Origin: Thermosipho atlanticus DSM 15807
GTDB lineage: Bacteria; Thermotogota; Thermotogae; Thermotogales; Fervidobacteriaceae
Reading direction: 5' to 3'
Length of the DNA: 64,000 bases
Assembly: GCF_900129985.1 (NCBI RefSeq)
Contig: NZ_FQXN01000001.1
Coordinates: 186,001 to 250,000 of the forward strand
Each line of letters begins with the position of its first letter. The stretch's first letter is position 1. Below the pieces are notes generated by a model. It saw only the letters and a program-made list of their open reading frames with translations. It did no database searches and was not told where the DNA came from. This document shows positions 3,114 through 42,545 of the stretch, piece after piece. Made by a program: the position numbers and the translations under genes.

Positions 3114-3669
3114 AATAAATGAAATAATAGGTAAAGAAAATTGTATTATTTTACCTATGGATAATTATTATCGAGATATGAGTCACATTCCTTTAGAAGA
3201 AAGAAAAAAGTATAATTACGATCATCCTGATATGATTGAATACACATTAATGATAGGCCATCTAGAGCAATTAATTAGTGGCAAAAGTATAGACTTGCCT
3301 GAGTATGATTTTACTCAATATACTAGGACGGGAAATTTTGTTAAATTAGAACCAAAATCTGTAATTATTGTAGAAGGAATTTTTGCGTTGTATTATGATG
3401 ATCTAAGAAAATTTTATAATCTTTCTATTTTTGTTGATGCTGAAAGCGATGTGCGGTTTATTAGAAGACTTGAACGTGACATTAAAGAGAGAGGCCGGAC
3501 AATTGAAAGTGTTATAAATCAATATTTAAATTTGGTTAAACCAATGCATGATGCGTATGTAGAACCCACAAAGAAGTATGCTGATTTAATTATTCCTAAA
3601 GGAGGATTTAATGAAAAAGCCATAGATGTAGTTGTTGAGTTTATTTTTAAGAAATTGGCCGAAAGTTAA
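3055..3669 (+). CDS. udk: Uridine kinase
   Basis: The product phosphorylates uridine (and usually cytidine) to the monophosphate, using ATP or GTP, in pyrimidine salvage. The P-loop GGTGSGKT lies at residues 8-15, and the family sequences NYDHPDM near residue 60, YDFTQYTR near residue 84 and VIVEGIFAL near residue 103 are present. The length of 204 residues matches bacterial uridine kinases. The ATG at 3055 follows AAGGAAGGG. Upp, another salvage enzyme, is encoded at 31382-32008. Confidence 0.92.
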   Translation: MFIIGIGGGTGSGKTTVANKINEIIGKENCIILPMDNYYRDMSHIPLEERKKYNYDHPDMIEYTLMIGHLEQLISGKSIDLPEYDFTQYTRTGNFVKLEPKSVIIVEGIFALYYDDLRKFYNLSIFVDAESDVRFIRRLERDIKERGRTIESVINQYLNLVKPMHDAYVEPTKKYADLIIPKGGFNEKAIDVVVEFIFKKLAES

Positions 3670-3689
3670 AGGCTAAAGGGAGTGGAAAA

Positions 3690-5198
3690 ATGTATTATAA
3701 AGTTTCAAGAGATCCTATTCATTCAGAAGTGTTTATGTATCCTTTGGAGATAATTGCTTCAGATACGAAAGCAATGCAGAGATTAAGATATTTGTCTCAG
3801 TTAGTAGGAGCAGAATATGTTTATCCGGGAGCTACTCATACAAGATTTGCTCACTCTCTGGGAGTAATGCATATTGCAGGAATGTATGCTGAGCATCTTT
3901 TTGATTCTCCCGAAAGAATAAGAATTTTGAGGCTTGCAGGTTTGTTGCATGATATAGGTCATGGTCCATTTAGTCACCAATTTGATGAGATAGTTTATAA
4001 AAAAATGGGTCTTGAGGATGGCCATGATGAATATAGAGAGAAAATTCTTTTGGAGTACATGCCTTTGAAAATGTATGAAGTTTATGAAAGAGCGCCAAGT
4101 AGTTTAAAGAAAGCTGTTTGTGAAGATTTGGAGATTGTGCTTGGTGGATATTCTGAAAATTTGGTTGATGATTTTAGAGAAGTTTTGAAGAGGGTTGTAG
4201 AAATTTTTAAAGGTGAAAGTGAGGGGACTATCGATTTTGCAATCATCCAAGGTCCATTAGGTGCAGACAGGTTAGATTTTGTTTTGAGGGATTCATATTT
4301 TGCTGGTACTAGAGGATTTGGAACAGGTTCTCTTGATAGATTAATAAGAAATTCTTTAATAATTAATAAGGATGAAAGAGATTATCTAGCTTATAATATT
4401 AAAGTTATTGATGAAATATACACTATTTTATTTGGTAGATTTATGATGTATAAAAATGTATATTTTCATAAAACTTCTAGAGCAGCCGACCTTATGATTC
4501 AAGAATTATTGGAACTTGCATATAGACCATTAAAATTAAAAGAAAGAGTAAAGAATTTAGAAGCATTTATGGAACTTACAGACCAAAAAATTATAAATGA
4601 AATAGAAATAATGTTTAATCAAATAGTTAATGAATATTCCTTAGATTCTTTTGAATTTACAAAAAGGGATATTTTAGAGTATAAAATTGATCTTCAACCT
4701 GTGGAATTAGATGTAGTTATGGCTTATGAAATAATTGAGCGATTAAAAAATAGAAACCTTTGGAAAACAATAATTGAGACACCATTTTTTGTAGAAGGTA
4801 TAGATCCTTCTGTTGCAAGTCAAGGATTTGCAATGGATATTTTGCAAAAAATAAGATTTAGACTTGAACGAGCAATTGAAACTTGTGAGGAAACAGATAA
4901 AGAAAAACTTTCAATGATTTTGTCAAATTTTGATGAAATATTCAAAGTTGATACTCCTTATAAACTTTCTTTAGTGCATCCTGAGGAATTTTTAAAAAGC
5001 AATATTTATATTTACGATACTTGGAAAGATCAGATTCTCTCGTTTGATGAATATGTCAAAAATTATCCAGCTTACAATTTGATGAGCAATAACCTAATTC
5101 AAATAGTAAGAGTTTATGTGACAGAAGATATTAGAGAGATATTAGATAAGTACAATATAATCCCAAAAGTTCAAACGTTATTAACTACGAGGTGGTAG
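3690..5198 (+). CDS. HD-domain phosphohydrolase (COG1078-type dNTPase-like)
   Basis: The 502-residue protein has an N-terminal HD domain: the first histidine lies in THTRFAHSLGV near residues 50-60, the HD pair is H87-D88 in LLHDIGHGPFSH, and a final aspartate is in ADRLDFVLRD near residue 190. These are the metal ligands of HD phosphohydrolases such as dGTP triphosphohydrolase relatives. The rest is helical and typical of the COG1078 family. Hydrolysis of dNTPs or another nucleotide is likely from the family; the substrate is not deducible. It is co-transcribed with udk and coaX. Confidence 0.8.
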   Translation: MYYKVSRDPIHSEVFMYPLEIIASDTKAMQRLRYLSQLVGAEYVYPGATHTRFAHSLGVMHIAGMYAEHLFDSPERIRILRLAGLLHDIGHGPFSHQFDEIVYKKMGLEDGHDEYREKILLEYMPLKMYEVYERAPSSLKKAVCEDLEIVLGGYSENLVDDFREVLKRVVEIFKGESEGTIDFAIIQGPLGADRLDFVLRDSYFAGTRGFGTGSLDRLIRNSLIINKDERDYLAYNIKVIDEIYTILFGRFMMYKNVYFHKTSRAADLMIQELLELAYRPLKLKERVKNLEAFMELTDQKIINEIEIMFNQIVNEYSLDSFEFTKRDILEYKIDLQPVELDVVMAYEIIERLKNRNLWKTIIETPFFVEGIDPSVASQGFAMDILQKIRFRLERAIETCEETDKEKLSMILSNFDEIFKVDTPYKLSLVHPEEFLKSNIYIYDTWKDQILSFDEYVKNYPAYNLMSNNLIQIVRVYVTEDIREILDKYNIIPKVQTLLTTRW

Positions 5199-5199
5199 T

Positions 5200-5952
5200 T
5201 TGTTTTTGTTATTTGATGTTGGCAACACTCATACGACAGTGGCTATAACTGATGATGGTAAAAATTTTGATATAAGAAGAATTTCTACAAAGTTACTTCA
5301 AACTGAAGATGAGCTTTTTGTGTTTTTAAGGGGATTTTATGATGTAAAAGTAAAACAGGTGGTTGTTTCTTCGGTAGTTCCAAATATCAATCACGTTTTA
5401 AGCTTTTTTGCTCAAAAGTACGTTGGCTGTGAAGCAGTTTTTGTTGAAGCAATAAAATTTTCAAGGATTAAATGGAACGTTAAGATTCCTGAAGAAATAG
5501 GAGCTGATAGAGTAGCAGATGTAATAGCAGCATATTATGATTATGGAAAAGATGCGATTGTGGTTGATTTTGGTACAGCAATCACAATTGAGGTCCTTAA
5601 AAATGGTATTTATGAAGGCGGAGTAATTATTCCTGGTTTTTCTATGTTAATTAATGCTTTATTTGAAGGAACTGCGAAACTTCCTATGGTAGAAATAAAA
5701 GCAGCTGATAGGTTTGTGGGAAAAGATACAGAAAGTAATATAAGAATAGGTACAATCAATGCTATTATGGGTGGAATAAGATATTTGATAGATAATATTA
5801 AAAAAGAGCAAAAATTCAAAGATGTACCATTAATATTTACCGGAGGACAAGCAAGGTTAATTCAGAATCAAAAGATTTTTAGTGAAGCAATAATTGATTA
5901 CAACCTTGGATTAAGGGGGATCTTCTACTTTTATGAAAGCCTTACTAATTAA
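5200..5952 (+). CDS. coaX: Type III pantothenate kinase
   Basis: CoaX phosphorylates pantothenate in the first step of coenzyme A synthesis. The ASKHA-fold motifs are visible: FDVGNTHTT at residues 5-13, GADRVAD near residue 107, DFGTAITIE near residue 125, and GGVIIPG near residue 147. The 250-residue length fits the family. The start is TTG 5200, with GAGGTGG at 5189-5195. Its last 20 bases overlap the start of the radical SAM gene, so translation is probably coupled. Confidence 0.92.
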   Translation: MFLLFDVGNTHTTVAITDDGKNFDIRRISTKLLQTEDELFVFLRGFYDVKVKQVVVSSVVPNINHVLSFFAQKYVGCEAVFVEAIKFSRIKWNVKIPEEIGADRVADVIAAYYDYGKDAIVVDFGTAITIEVLKNGIYEGGVIIPGFSMLINALFEGTAKLPMVEIKAADRFVGKDTESNIRIGTINAIMGGIRYLIDNIKKEQKFKDVPLIFTGGQARLIQNQKIFSEAIIDYNLGLRGIFYFYESLTN

Positions 5953-7303
5953 TCCTTGGATTGAAGATTTTGCAGCGTATGATTTCTGGCTAAAACCATT
6001 GGGATTGTTGTATGTTGGTGCGTATTTAAAAAAGTTGGGATTTGACGTTTTCTTGATAGATTTAATGAATAGACATGATAAAAATTTAGAAAAATATGTA
6101 AAAGTTCCAAAGGATAAGTTTTATAAAACAGGGAAATTCCCATATACAGAAGTAAAGAAACCTGAAATTTTATCATTTGTTCCACGAAAATATAAGCGAT
6201 ATGGTGCTCCGGAAAAGTATTTTTTGGACAAGTTGAATGAAATAGGTAAAATAGATATCATTCTAGTAACATCAACTTTAACATATTGGTATCCAGGTTA
6301 TTGGGAAACAATAAATTTTTTAAGAAAATACTATGGTAATAAAATTCCAATTATTTTTGGAGGTTTTTATGTTAGAAATTTGCCCTCACATGCCCAAAGA
6401 ACAAACACAATTATTTATAGTGGAAATGATTTAAATAGATTATCTAGTTTGTTAGAAAAATTATTTTCAAAAAATTTTAGAAAGAACTTTATTGATTGGT
6501 TTGAAGATTTAGACCCTGCTTATGAATTATATGACAATTTGGGCTATCTTGTGTTTACAACAACTGTTGGTTGTCCATTTAAATGTTCTTATTGTATTGC
6601 TCATAAAATTTGGAATGGAATGAAATTCAGAAATCCCCATAAGGTTGTAAATGCGATTGAAAAATACGTTGAAAAATTTAAAGTTAGTGATGTTGTTTTT
6701 TTTGATGATGCCATACTTGTTAATTCTAAAAAACATTTCAACCAAATTTTAAAAGAAATTATAAAAAGAAATTTGAAGTTAAATTTTCATCTTCCCAATG
6801 GAATACATGCAAAGATGGTATCAGAGGAAACAGTTGAACTTATGGCACAAGCGAACTTTAAAACAATAAAGCTTGGATATGAGACTGCAGGTGAGCTCCA
6901 ATTGAAAACTGGTGGGAAAGTTAAAGATGAAGATTTAATCAGAGCAGCAAGGATATTTAGAAAGTATGGTTTTACTGAAAAAGAAGTTTCCGCTTACATA
7001 ATGGTTAACATTCCAAATCAAAACCCGGATGACGTTATAAATGCAATGAAAATTTGCAAAAACGAAGGAATTGGTTTTTCTCTAAATGAATTTACACCGA
7101 TTGTGGGGACAGATGATTGGATTAATTTAATAAATGAGGGTAAATTAACTGGTTTGGAAGATCCTTTGTTGTTGAATAATACTGTATTACCGTTTTGGTG
7201 GAAATATGGAATGAATGAGAATATGGTGCAACGTTTGAAAGATTTGGCACGAAAAATCAAGGACGGTGAACTTGTTGACAAATTTAAGGGAAATATTAGT
7301 TAA
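5933..7303 (+). CDS. Radical SAM protein with N-terminal B12-binding-like domain
   Basis: The 456-residue protein starts with a Rossmann-like domain of the B12-binding type (LLINPW, then PLGLLYVGAYLKKLGFDV) but without the DxHxxG cobalamin histidine motif that I can recognise. It continues with a radical SAM core whose iron-sulfur cysteines are C214, C218 and C221 in CPFKCSYC. Proteins of this layout modify small molecules, lipids or RNA; the substrate cannot be told. It overlaps coaX upstream and the M50-like gene downstream by 38 bases. Confidence 0.8.
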   Translation: MKALLINPWIEDFAAYDFWLKPLGLLYVGAYLKKLGFDVFLIDLMNRHDKNLEKYVKVPKDKFYKTGKFPYTEVKKPEILSFVPRKYKRYGAPEKYFLDKLNEIGKIDIILVTSTLTYWYPGYWETINFLRKYYGNKIPIIFGGFYVRNLPSHAQRTNTIIYSGNDLNRLSSLLEKLFSKNFRKNFIDWFEDLDPAYELYDNLGYLVFTTTVGCPFKCSYCIAHKIWNGMKFRNPHKVVNAIEKYVEKFKVSDVVFFDDAILVNSKKHFNQILKEIIKRNLKLNFHLPNGIHAKMVSEETVELMAQANFKTIKLGYETAGELQLKTGGKVKDEDLIRAARIFRKYGFTEKEVSAYIMVNIPNQNPDDVINAMKICKNEGIGFSLNEFTPIVGTDDWINLINEGKLTGLEDPLLLNNTVLPFWWKYGMNENMVQRLKDLARKIKDGELVDKFKGNIS

Positions 7304-7889
7304 TTTAACAACAGGTTTCTTAGCGGTCATTTTAGTGATCTTACCTAGAGAATATGTAAAGGCTTATACAATAACAAAATTGGGGGATCAAACTCCCAAA
7401 AAACTTGGGAGGCTTTCGCTGAATCCTTTTGTTCATCTTGATCCTATTGGAACAATATCATTTATACTTTTTAATTTTGGTTGGTCTAGACCTGTACCAA
7501 CAATACCTTTGAAATCGAGTAAATTAAAAAAAAGTTTATTAATAACTTCTATTATCGGCCCAGTTTTTGGTATAATATTGTTTGTAATATATGGTATAAT
7601 TACAAGAAATATTGATAATAGATATTTATTTCTGATATTTTATAAGGCAACTAAATGGAGTTTAACATATGCGATTTTTTCTATGTTGCCGATACCACCG
7701 TTAGATGGTTCAAGGTTTTTGAGTGCGTTTTTGCCAGGCGAATATATCGAGTGGTATGTGAAATATGAAGTTTATGGTATACTTTTTATGTTGGCATTGT
7801 TATTTATTTGGATTTTACCATTGGTTATGAGTCCATTCGTAGCTTTTATTGAGAATTTAACCAATTTTATTATAAATGGAGGGGGATAA
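7266..7889 (+). CDS. M50 (site-2 protease-like) membrane protein lacking the catalytic HExxH
   Basis: The 207-residue membrane protein aligns by eye with the short M50/S2P-like family: LGDQTPKKLGRLSLNP then HLDPIGTI near residues 46-67, RPVPTIP, and PIPPLDGSRFL with D147. In active members the first transmembrane helix carries HExxH just before the GDxT segment. Here that place reads PREYVKA, so both zinc histidines are replaced (R28 and K32) while the glutamate remains. It is therefore probably a non-proteolytic homologue. The start is uncertain: GTG 7266 or TTG 7272/7275, all behind AAGGA. It is followed directly by a coiled-coil gene. Confidence 0.75.
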   Translation: MNLLTNLREILVNLTTGFLAVILVILPREYVKAYTITKLGDQTPKKLGRLSLNPFVHLDPIGTISFILFNFGWSRPVPTIPLKSSKLKKSLLITSIIGPVFGIILFVIYGIITRNIDNRYLFLIFYKATKWSLTYAIFSMLPIPPLDGSRFLSAFLPGEYIEWYVKYEVYGILFMLALLFIWILPLVMSPFVAFIENLTNFIINGGG

Positions 7890-7890
7890 C

Positions 7891-8145
7891 ATGGAAGAGA
7901 AAATTAGGGAATTAGAAAATGTTATTGAGGAGGTATTGAAGAAGTACGAAGAATTAAAAAAGGAAAACAAAGAGCTTTGGAAGGAGCTAAACGCGACTAT
8001 TGAAAGGGCTAATCATCTAGAACAGGAAAAGAGGGAATTAGAAGAGCTTTTAAGACAAAATGAAGGAACAATTGAGAACTTGCTGGGTAAAGTAAAAAAT
8101 CTTTTAGGTACCGTATCTGAGATAAATGGCGAAGAAAATATTTAA
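7891..8145 (+). CDS. Small coiled-coil protein (ZapB-like by appearance)
   Basis: The product of 84 residues is one long charged heptad-repeat helix from residue 2 to about 70, rich in E, K and L. No conserved catalytic residue is seen. The ATG at 7891 sits behind GGAGGGGG and is preferred to an ATG at 7876 that would lie before that site. The next gene, overlapping by 20 bases, resembles ZapA, so a ZapB-like cell division accessory role is a reasonable guess, but sequence alone cannot separate this from any other small coiled coil. Confidence 0.6.
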   Translation: MEEKIRELENVIEEVLKKYEELKKENKELWKELNATIERANHLEQEKRELEELLRQNEGTIENLLGKVKNLLGTVSEINGEENI

Positions 8146-8392
8146 TCTAGGGCTGCGTAAATTTGTTGTTGAAAGTGACAGCAGTAATGAAGTTTTAGAT
8201 TATATAGAGAATAGACTAGCACAGTTGAATAATAAATATAGTTATCTTTCATCAATTGATGAAAGGTTTCTTGCTATTATCTGTGAAATTTTGGAGAAAG
8301 AATATGGGACGAAATTAACAATTGAACAACTTTTAAAAAAATTACGGAATATTACTACTGGAGGAAGTTCACTTGAAGATAGGTCTATTTGA
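8126..8392 (+). CDS. ZapA-like small protein
   Basis: The 88-residue product has a short N-terminal strand pair (KIFNLGLRKFVVESD) followed by helices with the spacing of ZapA: residues of the YIENRLAQLNNKY type, then FLAIICEILEKEYG. ZapA binds FtsZ filaments in the cytoplasm and helps bundle them. The match is one of pattern, not of long identity, so the call is tentative. The gene is overlapped by the coiled-coil gene upstream and by murI downstream, which fits a division or wall-synthesis setting. Confidence 0.45.
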   Translation: MAKKIFNLGLRKFVVESDSSNEVLDYIENRLAQLNNKYSYLSSIDERFLAIICEILEKEYGTKLTIEQLLKKLRNITTGGSSLEDRSI

Positions 8393-9170
8393 CTCAGGAA
8401 TTGGTGGAATCTCCGTATTAAAAAAACTTACATATTTAAATGGAGCTCATTACATTTATATTGCTGACACAGAAAGAGCTCCGTATGGTATAAAAACTCC
8501 AGAAACGCTGGAAAGTTTTGTTTATCAGTTTATTGACTTTTTTGAAAGAAAAAATGTTGATGAGGTATTTGCTGCATGTAACACTACTGATTCAATTATT
8601 ATAGAAAAGGAATTAAAATTTAATATTAAGTATCATAGCATTGTAAAAGCAGGGGTCAATGCGAGTAAGTCTTGGAAGGTAGGTGTTATTGGTACAAATG
8701 TAACTATTAAAAATGAGACTTATAAAAAACAATTGGAACGGCTAGAAAAAGAAGTTTTTCAGAAATCAGCTCAGTTATTTGTTTCATTAGTTGAAGAAGG
8801 GATCTTTTATGGCCGAATGGTTGAAGCTATTGCGAATTTTTATTTAAATTCATTTAGGAAAACTGGTATAGAAGAATTAATTTTAGGTTGCACTCACTTT
8901 CCATTTTTAAAAGGCATTATTTCCAGGGTTCTGCCCAAAGTTAAAATAATTGATCCAGCTGAGGAATTATCTAAAGAAATTTCGATTGACAGAAGTAAAA
9001 AACCTTTTGTTGAGTTTTATGTCACTGGGGATATAAAAGCGTTTGAGAGAAAGCTAAAAAGAATTAATTTTAGAGTACCACACGTTGTACACAGATTGGA
9101 AATCAGGAAGCTAAAGGTGATTGATAGTGAAAAACCTAATATTATTAACTGGGATGTCAGGAGCGGGTAA
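8373..9170 (+). CDS. murI: Glutamate racemase
   Basis: MurI converts L-glutamate to the D-glutamate needed for peptidoglycan. The signature FDSGIGG is at residues 6-12 and the two catalytic cysteines are C69 in AACNTTDS and C173 in GCTHFPF. The 265-residue length is normal. The start is TTG 8373 behind GGAGGA at 8360-8365. The last 44 bases overlap rapZ in another frame. Confidence 0.93.
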   Translation: MKIGLFDSGIGGISVLKKLTYLNGAHYIYIADTERAPYGIKTPETLESFVYQFIDFFERKNVDEVFAACNTTDSIIIEKELKFNIKYHSIVKAGVNASKSWKVGVIGTNVTIKNETYKKQLERLEKEVFQKSAQLFVSLVEEGIFYGRMVEAIANFYLNSFRKTGIEELILGCTHFPFLKGIISRVLPKVKIIDPAEELSKEISIDRSKKPFVEFYVTGDIKAFERKLKRINFRVPHVVHRLEIRKLKVIDSEKPNIINWDVRSG

Positions 9171-27803: not shown

Positions 27804-27833
27804 AAAAAAAAGGGCAAGTTGCCCTTTTTTTAT
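27804..27833. terminator. Bidirectional terminator between Opp operon and tRNA-Ser
   Basis: The stem GGGC/GCCC with loop AAGTT is flanked by seven A on the left and seven T on the right, so it can work on both strands. On the minus strand it lies 11 bases past the tRNA-Ser 3' end. Confidence 0.8.
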
Positions 27834-39503: not shown

Positions 39504-41231
39504 CTACCACTCTCTATATTTATTTGTGATTGGCATTCTCCTATCTTTTCCAAATGATCTTTCCGTTATTTTTATTCCCGGGGCGCTTTGTTTTCTCTTA
39601 TATTCATTTTTGTCAACCAGTTTAGCAACATACTTAACAGTTTCAAGGTTATAACCTTTTTCAGAAATTTCTTCTACAGATTTTTCTTTTTCAATGTATT
39701 CTTTTAAAATCCCATCAAGTATTTCGTATGGGGGCAATGAATCTTCATCCTTTTGGTTTGGTTTTAATTCAGCACTAGGTGGTTTAATAAAAACATTTTC
39801 GGGGATAATTTCTTTTCTTTTATATTTATTATACCACCTGGCAATTTTGTATACTTCAGTTTTGTAAACGTCTTTTATAGGTGATAAACCTCCAACCATA
39901 TCCCCATATAATGTGGCATATCCAGTAGCTGCTTCACTTTTATTACCAGTAGCCAAAACTAGGTATCCAAATTTGTTTGAAAGTGCCATTAAAATATTTC
40001 CTCTGATTCTTGCTTGTAAGTTTTCTTCAGTTGTATCTTCCTTTAAGCCTTTGAAAATCTCTGAAAAACCTTCTTTGTATTTTTCAAAAATATCTTCTAT
40101 AGAAATAATATGGTATTTAATATTTAAATTTTGGGCAAGGGTAATTGCATCATCAATACTGTGTTGAGAGGTATACATAGAAGGCATCAAAACTCCTATA
40201 ACATTTTCTGGTTTAAGAGCTTCAGCAGCGATAACAGCGACTAATGAAGAATCTATACCACCACTTAATCCTAGAACAACTTTCGAAAAACCATTTTTAA
40301 TTACATAATCTTTAAGTCCTAAAGTTAATGCTTTAAATATTTCTTCTTCTTTTTCAAGTTTATATTCTTTTTTATTAACAAATTCGAATTTTTTTGGTGT
40401 AGGGTTAAGTTGAGCCTTTACTGTAATAACTTCAGAGTTTTTGATTTTTTCAATATATCTTCTTCTTGGATCATGTAAATTTGTCCGAAGATTTTCTTCG
40501 ATTGGTATGTCGATTATTATTAATTCTTCTTCAAAAGGTTTCCCTTCGAATATTATATTTCCTTCTGAATTTGTTACAATACTTCCACCGTCAAAAACAA
40601 TTTCATCTTGCCCACCTACAAGATTACAATATACTATTGGGCAATGATAATCATAAGATTTTTGAGCCAAATAGTTTTTCCTTAATTCTCGTTTGCCATA
40701 AAAATATGGAGACGCGGAAAGATTTAGAATAAGTTGTGCGCCATTAGTTACTTGATAATGCATTGGACCTAAGGGACTCCAAATGTCTTCACAAATGTTA
40801 ATACCAATTTTTATGTTTCCATAATTTATTATTACAATTTCTTCACCAGGCTTGAAATATCTTCTTTCATCAAAAACACTGTAATTTGGTAAGAGTTGTT
40901 TGTGATATTTACCAATTAGTTGACCATTTTGAATAATTGCAGCTGCATTATATGCATCATTTTTAACATCAATAAAACCAAGCAAAATAACCGGATTTTT
41001 ACCTTTAGAATAATCTATTATTTTGTTTAAGTATTCTATGTTTTTCGATAAAAACGAAGTTCTAAGAACTAAGTCTTCTGGAGGATAACCGGTTAGAAAT
41101 AATTCAGGAAATATAACGAAATCAGAATTTTTTTCTTCGGAAAAATTTATAGCTTCAATTATTTTTTTATAATTTGTTTCAAAATCTCCAAGTGTAGAAT
41201 TTAATTGGGCCAAAGTTACTCTTATAAACAT
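39504..41231 (-). CDS. nadE: Glutamine-dependent NAD+ synthetase
   Basis: The last step of NAD synthesis. Residues 1-260 are a nitrilase-type glutaminase (catalytic E in VIFPELFLTGYPPEDL, K in KYHKQLLP, C in NICEDIWSP). Residues 300-575 are the synthetase with the ATP pyrophosphatase loop LGLSGGIDSSLVAV and the C-terminal RSFGKDRRMPITNKYR. Ammonia passes between the halves. It is transcribed away from the palindrome at 41252-41283, whose left arm contains its -10 element. Confidence 0.95.
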   Translation of the reverse strand: MFIRVTLAQLNSTLGDFETNYKKIIEAINFSEEKNSDFVIFPELFLTGYPPEDLVLRTSFLSKNIEYLNKIIDYSKGKNPVILLGFIDVKNDAYNAAAIIQNGQLIGKYHKQLLPNYSVFDERRYFKPGEEIVIINYGNIKIGINICEDIWSPLGPMHYQVTNGAQLILNLSASPYFYGKRELRKNYLAQKSYDYHCPIVYCNLVGGQDEIVFDGGSIVTNSEGNIIFEGKPFEEELIIIDIPIEENLRTNLHDPRRRYIEKIKNSEVITVKAQLNPTPKKFEFVNKKEYKLEKEEEIFKALTLGLKDYVIKNGFSKVVLGLSGGIDSSLVAVIAAEALKPENVIGVLMPSMYTSQHSIDDAITLAQNLNIKYHIISIEDIFEKYKEGFSEIFKGLKEDTTEENLQARIRGNILMALSNKFGYLVLATGNKSEAATGYATLYGDMVGGLSPIKDVYKTEVYKIARWYNKYKRKEIIPENVFIKPPSAELKPNQKDEDSLPPYEILDGILKEYIEKEKSVEEISEKGYNLETVKYVAKLVDKNEYKRKQSAPGIKITERSFGKDRRMPITNKYREW

Positions 41232-41251
41232 AAATTTCGCCTCCTTTATAA

Positions 41252-41283
41252 AAAATTATAACACGAAAATGTGTTATAATTTT
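41252..41283. promoter_or_regulatory. Perfect palindrome carrying two divergent extended -10 elements
   Basis: Two perfect 13 bp arms, AAAATTATAACAC and its complement, flank the six bases GAAAAT. Each arm contains TGTTATAAT, an extended -10 element: one reads right toward the regulator gene at 41302, the other left toward nadE. Neither has a good -35. Symmetry over both start regions suggests an operator for a dimeric repressor, perhaps the regulator encoded 19 bases away. Confidence 0.7.
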
Positions 41284-41301
41284 GGCGAAAGGAGTGAAAT
41301 A

Positions 41302-41928
41302 GTGGTAAAGATTAGTAATTTAAAATTTTTTGAACCTTCTCCTTATTTTAGAAAAATGTTAATTCTAGAATCTATATACGAAGATGAAACTATAACACAA
41401 AAGCAGTTGTCAATAAAGGTAGGAATAGTACCTTCATTGATTAATAAATACTTGTCTGAATTAAAAAAAGATGGATTTATAACTGTTACAAAAACAGGAA
41501 AACGTGCGAAATACAATCTTACCAAAAATGGCTTATCAGAACTTAATTTGATGAGATTAGCTTTTTTTAATGACATAGTTAACCTTTCAAATCAAATAAA
41601 TGTACACCTTGAGAGTATATTTTTGAAATTAAAAGGTAAAAGACATATTGCTGTTTACGGGGCAGGAATAGTGGGAAAGACATTGTGTGAGTTATTGGTT
41701 AATAGAAATTTTAATGTTGTAGTTTTTTTCGATGATGATGAAAGTAAAATTGGTACACGTATTCGAGGGATTCCTGTTATTAGTATTAATTCTCCAGCGA
41801 AGTTTGATGCATTAGTAGTTGCCTCTTTTAAGAACGCTCGAAAAATGGCAAATAAAGCTTTAAGTATTGGGTTTAGGGATGTATACATTTTCAAAACGGA
41901 GGGTATAAAACTAATATGGTATGGTTAA
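41302..41928 (+). CDS. Two-domain regulator: winged helix plus Rossmann (CoA-binding/PglD-like) domain
   Basis: The 208-residue protein starts at GTG 41302 behind GAAAGGAG. Residues 12-80 are a winged helix-turn-helix (ILESIYEDETITQKQLSIKVG, then LSELKKDGFITVTKTGKRAKYNLT). From about residue 115 a Rossmann-like domain follows with VYGAGIVGKTLCELLVNRN and FFDDDESKIGTRIRGIPVI, as in CoA-binding or PglD N-terminal domains. It probably binds DNA in response to a nucleotide or cofactor. It lies next to a palindrome shared with nadE, so a link to NAD supply is possible. Confidence 0.7.
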   Translation: MVKISNLKFFEPSPYFRKMLILESIYEDETITQKQLSIKVGIVPSLINKYLSELKKDGFITVTKTGKRAKYNLTKNGLSELNLMRLAFFNDIVNLSNQINVHLESIFLKLKGKRHIAVYGAGIVGKTLCELLVNRNFNVVVFFDDDESKIGTRIRGIPVISINSPAKFDALVVASFKNARKMANKALSIGFRDVYIFKTEGIKLIWYG

Positions 41929-42545
41929 AAATATTAAAGTATATTTCGATCTTTTTGATATTTCTTGTTCTACTTTCGATGTTATTTGAAAAATCTAGTT
42001 ATTCTATAAATTTCTCTTCTCTTGGAGAAGTAAATAATTTTGTGACTGAAATTTATTTAAAAAACAGATTATATGATACAATTTTTGAGGTTTTAGTATT
42101 TTCTTTGGCTGCTTTAGGTGTTTTATTATTTAATTTTTCTATTGAATTGAATAGAATATTTTTGCATGAAGAGCATATAAGGATTTTATTAAGATTTTTA
42201 AGTTTTTTTGTAATGTTGAGTTCTTTTTATTTGGCATATTATGGCCATATTACTCCAGGTGGAGGTTTTTCAGCTGGAGTTGCAGGTGGGACAGCACTTC
42301 TTCTATATGCCTTAAGTACTACTATAAGTGAATTTGAACATTTTTTTCACGGTTTTAAAGTAAAATTGTTTGAAAAAATTTTCTTATTTTTTATTTATAT
42401 TTTTTCTGTGGTTACTTTTTTTGAAGGTACTAGCTTTTGGCAAATTAATAATATTATTCTTTTGAATATATTGATTTATCTCAAAGTGATGTTTGGAACA
42501 TGGATAATATTGTACAGTTTTATTAAACATCGTGGAATAATTTAG
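41916..42545 (+). CDS. Mrp/Mbh antiporter subunit, MbhE-MbhF (MrpB) type
   Basis: The 209-residue membrane protein has about six helices. Its centre has YLKNRLYDTIFEVLVFSLAALG, the MbhE-like signature, followed by YYGHITPGGGFSAGVAGGTALLLYAL, the MrpB/MbhF signature. These subunits belong to multi-part Na+/H+ antiporters and related membrane-bound hydrogenases. No other subunit is encoded nearby, so it must work with partners encoded elsewhere or alone. The gene overlaps the regulator by 13 bases. Confidence 0.75.
   Translation: MVWLKILKYISIFLIFLVLLSMLFEKSSYSINFSSLGEVNNFVTEIYLKNRLYDTIFEVLVFSLAALGVLLFNFSIELNRIFLHEEHIRILLRFLSFFVMLSSFYLAYYGHITPGGGFSAGVAGGTALLLYALSTTISEFEHFFHGFKVKLFEKIFLFFIYIFSVVTFFEGTSFWQINNIILLNILIYLKVMFGTWIILYSFIKHRGII

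Follow-up and report, generated by a model that had tools for sequence, protein, structure and literature searches.

Several described systems bear on the locus considered here. Rex proteins combine a winged-helix domain with a Rossmann domain, in that order. Nucleotide-sugar Rossmann domains are found in 3nkl (UDP-D-quinovosamine 4-dehydrogenase) and at the N terminus of PglD, NeuD and VioB. The WbpA-WbpB-WbpE-WbpD-WbpI pathway leads to UDP-ManNAc3NAcA, and its enzymes WbpA and WbpB are NAD+-dependent (PMC10622841). In the bidirectional promoters of E. coli, the two transcription starts are placed on either side of a shared -10 element or inside it, commonly at a distance of 10, 18 or 23 bp (PMC12825309). 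We have compared these systems with the region between nadE and a divergent regulator gene in a stretch of 64,000 nucleotides (the window). The comparison, which covers promoter layout, protein family, candidate operator, gene linkage and joint absence, makes it quite likely that this region holds a back-to-back promoter pair, and that the adjacent gene encodes a separate Rex-like nucleotide-sugar repressor that acts elsewhere.

The nadE gene (39504-41231, minus strand) encodes a glutamine-dependent NAD+ synthase of 575 residues, with a score of 768.7 bits for NCBIfam NF010588 (cut-off 479) and Pfam matches to NAD_synthase and CN_hydrolase. As described in an earlier note on this DNA, it diverges from a winged-helix/Rossmann reading frame (41302-41928, plus strand; GTG start), the product of which has 208 residues and consists of a winged helix, a long helix and a Rossmann domain; this protein is referred to below as the regulator. 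The end of its gene is overlapped by the start of an MnhB-like gene (41916-42545, plus strand; assigned by family matches), followed on the same strand by lgt-like and other genes, the names of which were read from sequence. Between nadE and the regulator gene lies an inverted repeat, AAAATTATAACAC-GAAAAT-GTGTTATAATTTT (41252-41283), which does have the perfect 13-bp arms, containing both divergent -10 elements, that had been reported for it, around a centre of 6 nt. Only two inverted repeats with arms of at least 13 and a gap of at most 10 occur in the whole window, and none was seen in 20 runs of a first-order Markov simulation; the palindrome is real and beyond chance. The second such repeat (27805-27831) is a G+C-rich hairpin followed by a T run, resembling a terminator.

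Most of each arm is an extended -10 element (TGNTATAAT), since TGTTATAAT is present on both strands: at 41255-41263 (minus strand) in the predicted nadE promoter and at 41272-41280 (plus strand) in the predicted regulator promoter. The -10 hexamers proper, at 41255-41260 and 41275-41280, are 14 bp apart. Among relatives in the window's genus (g1) and in genera g4 and g5, both the -10 of nadE and the TGNTATAAT element of the regulator gene are conserved. No -35 hexamer could be identified for either promoter. Placed by the usual 7-nt rule, transcription is predicted to start near 41248 (nadE) and 41287 (regulator), each start being followed closely by a Shine-Dalgarno sequence. For 41252-41283 an RNA hairpin could be dismissed, because both predicted start sites lie downstream of it.

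In the regulator, a winged-helix DNA-binding domain (residues 14-73; 41341-41520, plus strand) was delimited by a profile of orthologs and by AlphaFold2, and matches HTH_24 at 1e-9. A Rossmann domain with a GAGxVG loop (residues 113-206; 41638-41919, plus strand) was delimited by the ortholog profile and by structure comparison. The model comprises the winged helix, a helix of 35 residues and the Rossmann domain (mean pLDDT 89.4; 94.9 for the Rossmann domain modelled alone). The recognition-helix region, GIVPSLINKYL, hardly varies among the 24 orthologs of the profile, and one type of operator is therefore expected throughout the family. Invariant residues of the Rossmann domain are G120, A121, G122, G125, D144 and K149, the acidic D144 following strand 2. 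This domain is closest to 3nkl, both by profile (E 3.4e-11) and by structure (Z 13.1 over 96 residues, 2.2 A), followed by succinyl-CoA synthetase alpha (Z 11.6) and Rex (3wg9_D; Z 11.2 over 94 residues, 3.2 A). PglD_N is matched at E<=0.001 by 20 of the 24 family members, the window's protein scoring 21.4 bits against a cut-off of 23.4. When the whole protein was searched with Foldseek, Rex ranked first, with a TM of only about 0.37 owing to a different arrangement of the domains; hhalign against the genome's own Rex proteins gave 97.6% over residues 11-198. The proposal that the regulator falls outside the NrtR, NadR and NiaR families holds, as Nudix, 3H and NadR domains were absent in Pfam at E<=1 and among the best 25 of 40 NCBIfam matches. 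A search of the open-access literature revealed no described regulator of this winged-helix/Rossmann sugar type, which is weak evidence.

The profile was used to search 103 genomes of the phylum, and the regulator was found as a single copy in 67 of them (26 of 38 genera); family f3 and genus g8 lack it. Outside the window's family the next gene almost always encodes a DegT/DnrJ/EryC1 aminotransferase and the one after it a nucleotide-sugar dehydrogenase, with a Gfo/Idh oxidoreductase or a hexapeptide transferase nearby. By family and gene order, the regulator thus usually appears to head an operon for UDP-amino-sugar acids with WbpE-, WbpA- and WbpB-like products. All three Wbp-like genes are present in the window's genome, distant from the regulator gene. 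An exception is formed by four genomes of genus g20 in family f8 (L106-L109), in which the regulator lies upstream of a LemA-like gene and of fba-, ackA- and pyrB-like genes, and in which no match to the operator described below was found at the regulator loci; g20 is possibly a rewired branch of the family.

In families f2, f5, f7, f9 and f10 and in part of f8, the -10 of the regulator gene is immediately followed by a 19-bp palindrome, ATTCACTYAGTGARTGAAT, the candidate operator of the regulator family. Across the phylum it occurs about once per genome. The strict pattern was found in 47 of the 67 genomes with the regulator and in one of the 36 without it, and in that single case (G098) a contig ends just inside the regulator start. 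This association is partly trivial, as the site often precedes the regulator gene itself. The window's family (f1) provides an independent test, because the regulator lies elsewhere there: each of the 12 genomes examined that carry the regulator has the operator 39-55 bp ahead of wbpA (scores 22 to 30), against none of 10 regions upstream of wbpA in genomes without the regulator (best score -2.1). In the window's genome it is located outside the window, upstream of wbpA (G000:C1:97479-97495; ATTCAGTCAGTGAATGAAT), with a PWM score of 28.8. The earlier note had taken the palindrome beside nadE for the operator of the regulator, which is at odds with this result: no family operator is present in 41210-41310, where the best score is -8.8. 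Throughout the window's family, the regulator promoter lacks the self-site that it has in most of the phylum. Extra copies precede wbpB in g2 genomes (L189, L190, L281-L283) and wbpD in G087 (L197); none was found upstream of wbpB or wbpE in the window's genome or genus. In G083 a perfect operator with a -10 (L196:2255-2271) precedes small ORFs and a membrane protein gene instead of sugar genes, and one of these ORFs reads like a bacteriocin-type leader peptide. Comparison across genomes thus suggests that the regulator pairs with ATTCACTYAGTGARTGAAT as its predicted operator.

The likeness of the Rossmann domain to nucleotide-sugar enzymes, together with the nucleotide-sugar regulon, makes a UDP-sugar of the pathway the likeliest ligand, at roughly even chances; NAD(H) comes next, as a more tentative candidate, and the fold does not decide. 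A feedback loop had been suggested, in which the regulator responds to NAD(H) and acts on nadE by way of the palindrome. Such a loop would suit the GAGxVG loop with its invariant acidic residue, the distant whole-length similarity to Rex seen with hhalign and Foldseek, and the divergent arrangement with nadE in genera g1, g4 and g5. Gene linkage speaks against it: the two genes are not adjacent in two genera of the window's own family or anywhere else in the phylum, and beyond this family the regulator stands at the head of nucleotide-sugar operons. Moreover, the conserved operator sits at sugar genes, and none is found near nadE. We regard NAD feedback as very improbable; the best reading is that nadE is a neighbour of the regulator by gene order.

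The palindrome itself resembles a promoter arrangement that is widespread in the window's family. The pattern ATTATANCA-N4-10-TGNTATAAT was found at 56 sites in 20 genomes of this family, with 1 to 8 sites per genome; in the same genomes the pattern read backward gave no sites, and a convergent arrangement of the same elements gave six. Sixteen of the 19 classifiable loci that were fetched lie between divergent genes, the other three overlapping spurious-looking ORFs. The centre ranges from 4 to 10 nt, unlike an operator with fixed half-site spacing. These counts, the position between divergent genes and the variable centre all argue for paired back-to-back extended -10 promoters. The element at 41252-41283 is a predicted pair of this kind, its layout is generic in the window's family by sequence comparison, and this layout is a common solution there for tight divergent intergenic regions. 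A genome-wide regulon based on the palindrome motif, for which a genome search had been proposed, was rejected: with up to three mismatches five sites were found, as many as for the reversed control.

A very similar element was observed elsewhere in the window's genome. The 26-bp perfect palindrome ATTATATCACAACGTTGTGATATAAT (L058; G000:C2:94432-94457) is nearly identical to the one beside nadE and lies between two divergent genes of L058, encoding a polysaccharide-export protein (SLBB, wza-like; 3614-6403, minus strand) and a Wzc-like kinase (6512-8677, plus strand). A similar one is found in G028 (L216).

Symmetric overlapping promoters recur at the same spot in close relatives. The window's genus and two of four g4 genomes retain a palindrome between nadE and the regulator gene, in which the two arms have changed in step. 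The element reads ATTATAACAC-GAAAAT-GTGTTATAAT in the window, ATTATAACAT..ATGTTATAAT in L036, ATTATATCAC..GTGATATAAT in L040 and ATTATATCAT..ATGATATAAT in L039, while the site in L038 is asymmetric. It is absent from L041 and L042 (g4) and from L043 (g5). In genera g2 and g3 the regulator lies behind a chemotaxis-like gene, without such a promoter. A preset test of co-conservation of regulator and palindrome therefore fails in two of the four g4 genomes, in g5 and in all g2 and g3 genomes, and the layout recurs at unrelated gene pairs. Two further features of these regions may be mentioned. In L044-L051 (g2 and g3), genes resembling cheA, cheB and those of a response regulator and a chemotaxis receptor precede the regulator gene, apparently in one operon. 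A conserved protein of about 440 residues, with no Pfam or NCBIfam match, is encoded between the regulator gene or mnhB and lgt (L043:9378-10691, with equivalents in g2, g3 and g4); it is missing there in the window's genus.

The symmetry of the arms allows other readings. The earlier note recognised the -10 elements without setting them apart from operator symmetry; extended -10 elements explain most of each arm. At the two positions left free by the promoter (R and N of TRTGNTATAAT), symmetry was found in 7 of 8 sites of the nadE/regulator and wza/wzc loci against 9 of 43 other unique sites (Fisher p 6e-4), in a post hoc comparison of sites that are related by descent and not independent. 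This extra symmetry suggests that a protein dimer may also bind there. The palindrome would then be a genuine second operator, at which the regulator or another protein binds as a dimer and closes both promoters, so that nadE and polysaccharide export (wza/wzc) would respond to the sugar-nucleotide state. The concerted change of both arms in g1 and g4 relatives (TGTTATAAT to TGATATAAT, GTG to ATG) and the near-identical wza/wzc palindrome would fit such a role. However, the covarying positions are precisely those that the promoter leaves free, the centre between CAC and GTG varies from 5 to 7 nt among close relatives, the palindrome is lost in L041-L043 and in all g2 and g3 genomes, and its sequence is unlike the family operator, as the scores given above indicate. 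We consider a second operator unlikely. The broader proposal, that phylum-wide and apparently undescribed repressors of surface-sugar synthesis, reading a UDP-amino sugar or the NAD(H) consumed by its enzymes, also use this second, unrelated palindrome in the window's lineage and so place both NAD synthesis and polysaccharide export under one signal, is more doubtful still.

The arms could also owe their symmetry to mutation, through quasipalindrome correction by template switching and with no selection on symmetry. This would account for perfect arms around a centre of varying length, and the remaining back-to-back sites are indeed mildly more symmetric than shuffled ones (11 against 5.7 expected, p 0.019). 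The symmetry at nadE/regulator is clearly above that of other sites, which argues against such an origin; we give it a low probability, comparable to that of a second operator, and it is compatible with a back-to-back promoter pair.

For this promoter pair and the separate repressor we propose the following mechanism. Each -10 in 41252-41283 falls within the -35 zone of the other promoter, so that RNA polymerase could engage only one of the two promoters at any moment; promoter layout by itself would couple nadE to the regulator operon. The regulator would be a Rex-like winged-helix/Rossmann repressor, with its predicted operator ATTCACTYAGTGARTGAAT just downstream of the -10 and overlapping the transcription start. 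By occupying this site, a dimer would keep transcription of the UDP-amino-sugar-acid genes from initiating; that it represses rather than activates is inferred solely from this position across the start. Putative targets are the regulator-wbpE-wbpA-wbpB operon in most of the phylum, and wbpA (in some genera wbpB) in the window's family. The ligand of the Rossmann domain is probably a UDP-sugar of the pathway, or the NAD(H) that WbpA and WbpB use, and DNA binding would be altered in response. In the window's lineage the regulator gene, beside nadE and without an operator of its own, would act in trans.

A concrete predicted operator and regulon can thereby be assigned to a regulator family that two thirds of the sampled phylum genomes carry, which opens its ligand and its part in supplying cell-surface sugars to direct tests. 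In addition, promoter architecture, and not an operator, can underlie a conspicuous palindrome that covers two promoters, which calls for caution in motif-based regulon prediction in AT-rich genomes.

Compared with the described systems, the regulator shares with Rex its domain order, length and Rossmann motif, including the dinucleotide-type loop (G120, A121, G122, G125, D144), but it differs in operator and regulon, does not match the Rex DNA-binding domain PF06971 at E<=1, and reaches at best 30.7 bits against an NCBIfam cut-off of 130. The genome also encodes two true Rex proteins, which match PF06971 at 8e-21 and 1.6e-13. By sequence and fold its Rossmann domain is closest to those of 3nkl and of the PglD/NeuD/VioB N termini, but it is fused to a winged helix and lacks an acetyltransferase or dehydrogenase part. 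The linked genes, assigned here by family and gene order alone, belong to the same enzyme families as those of the Wbp pathway for UDP-2,3-diacetamido-2,3-dideoxy sugar acids (PMC10622841). The promoter pair differs from the E. coli bidirectional promoters in having two separate -10 elements and predicted starts about 39 bp apart, and resembles them in that symmetric DNA serves divergent transcription, with one polymerase excluding the other (PMC12825309).
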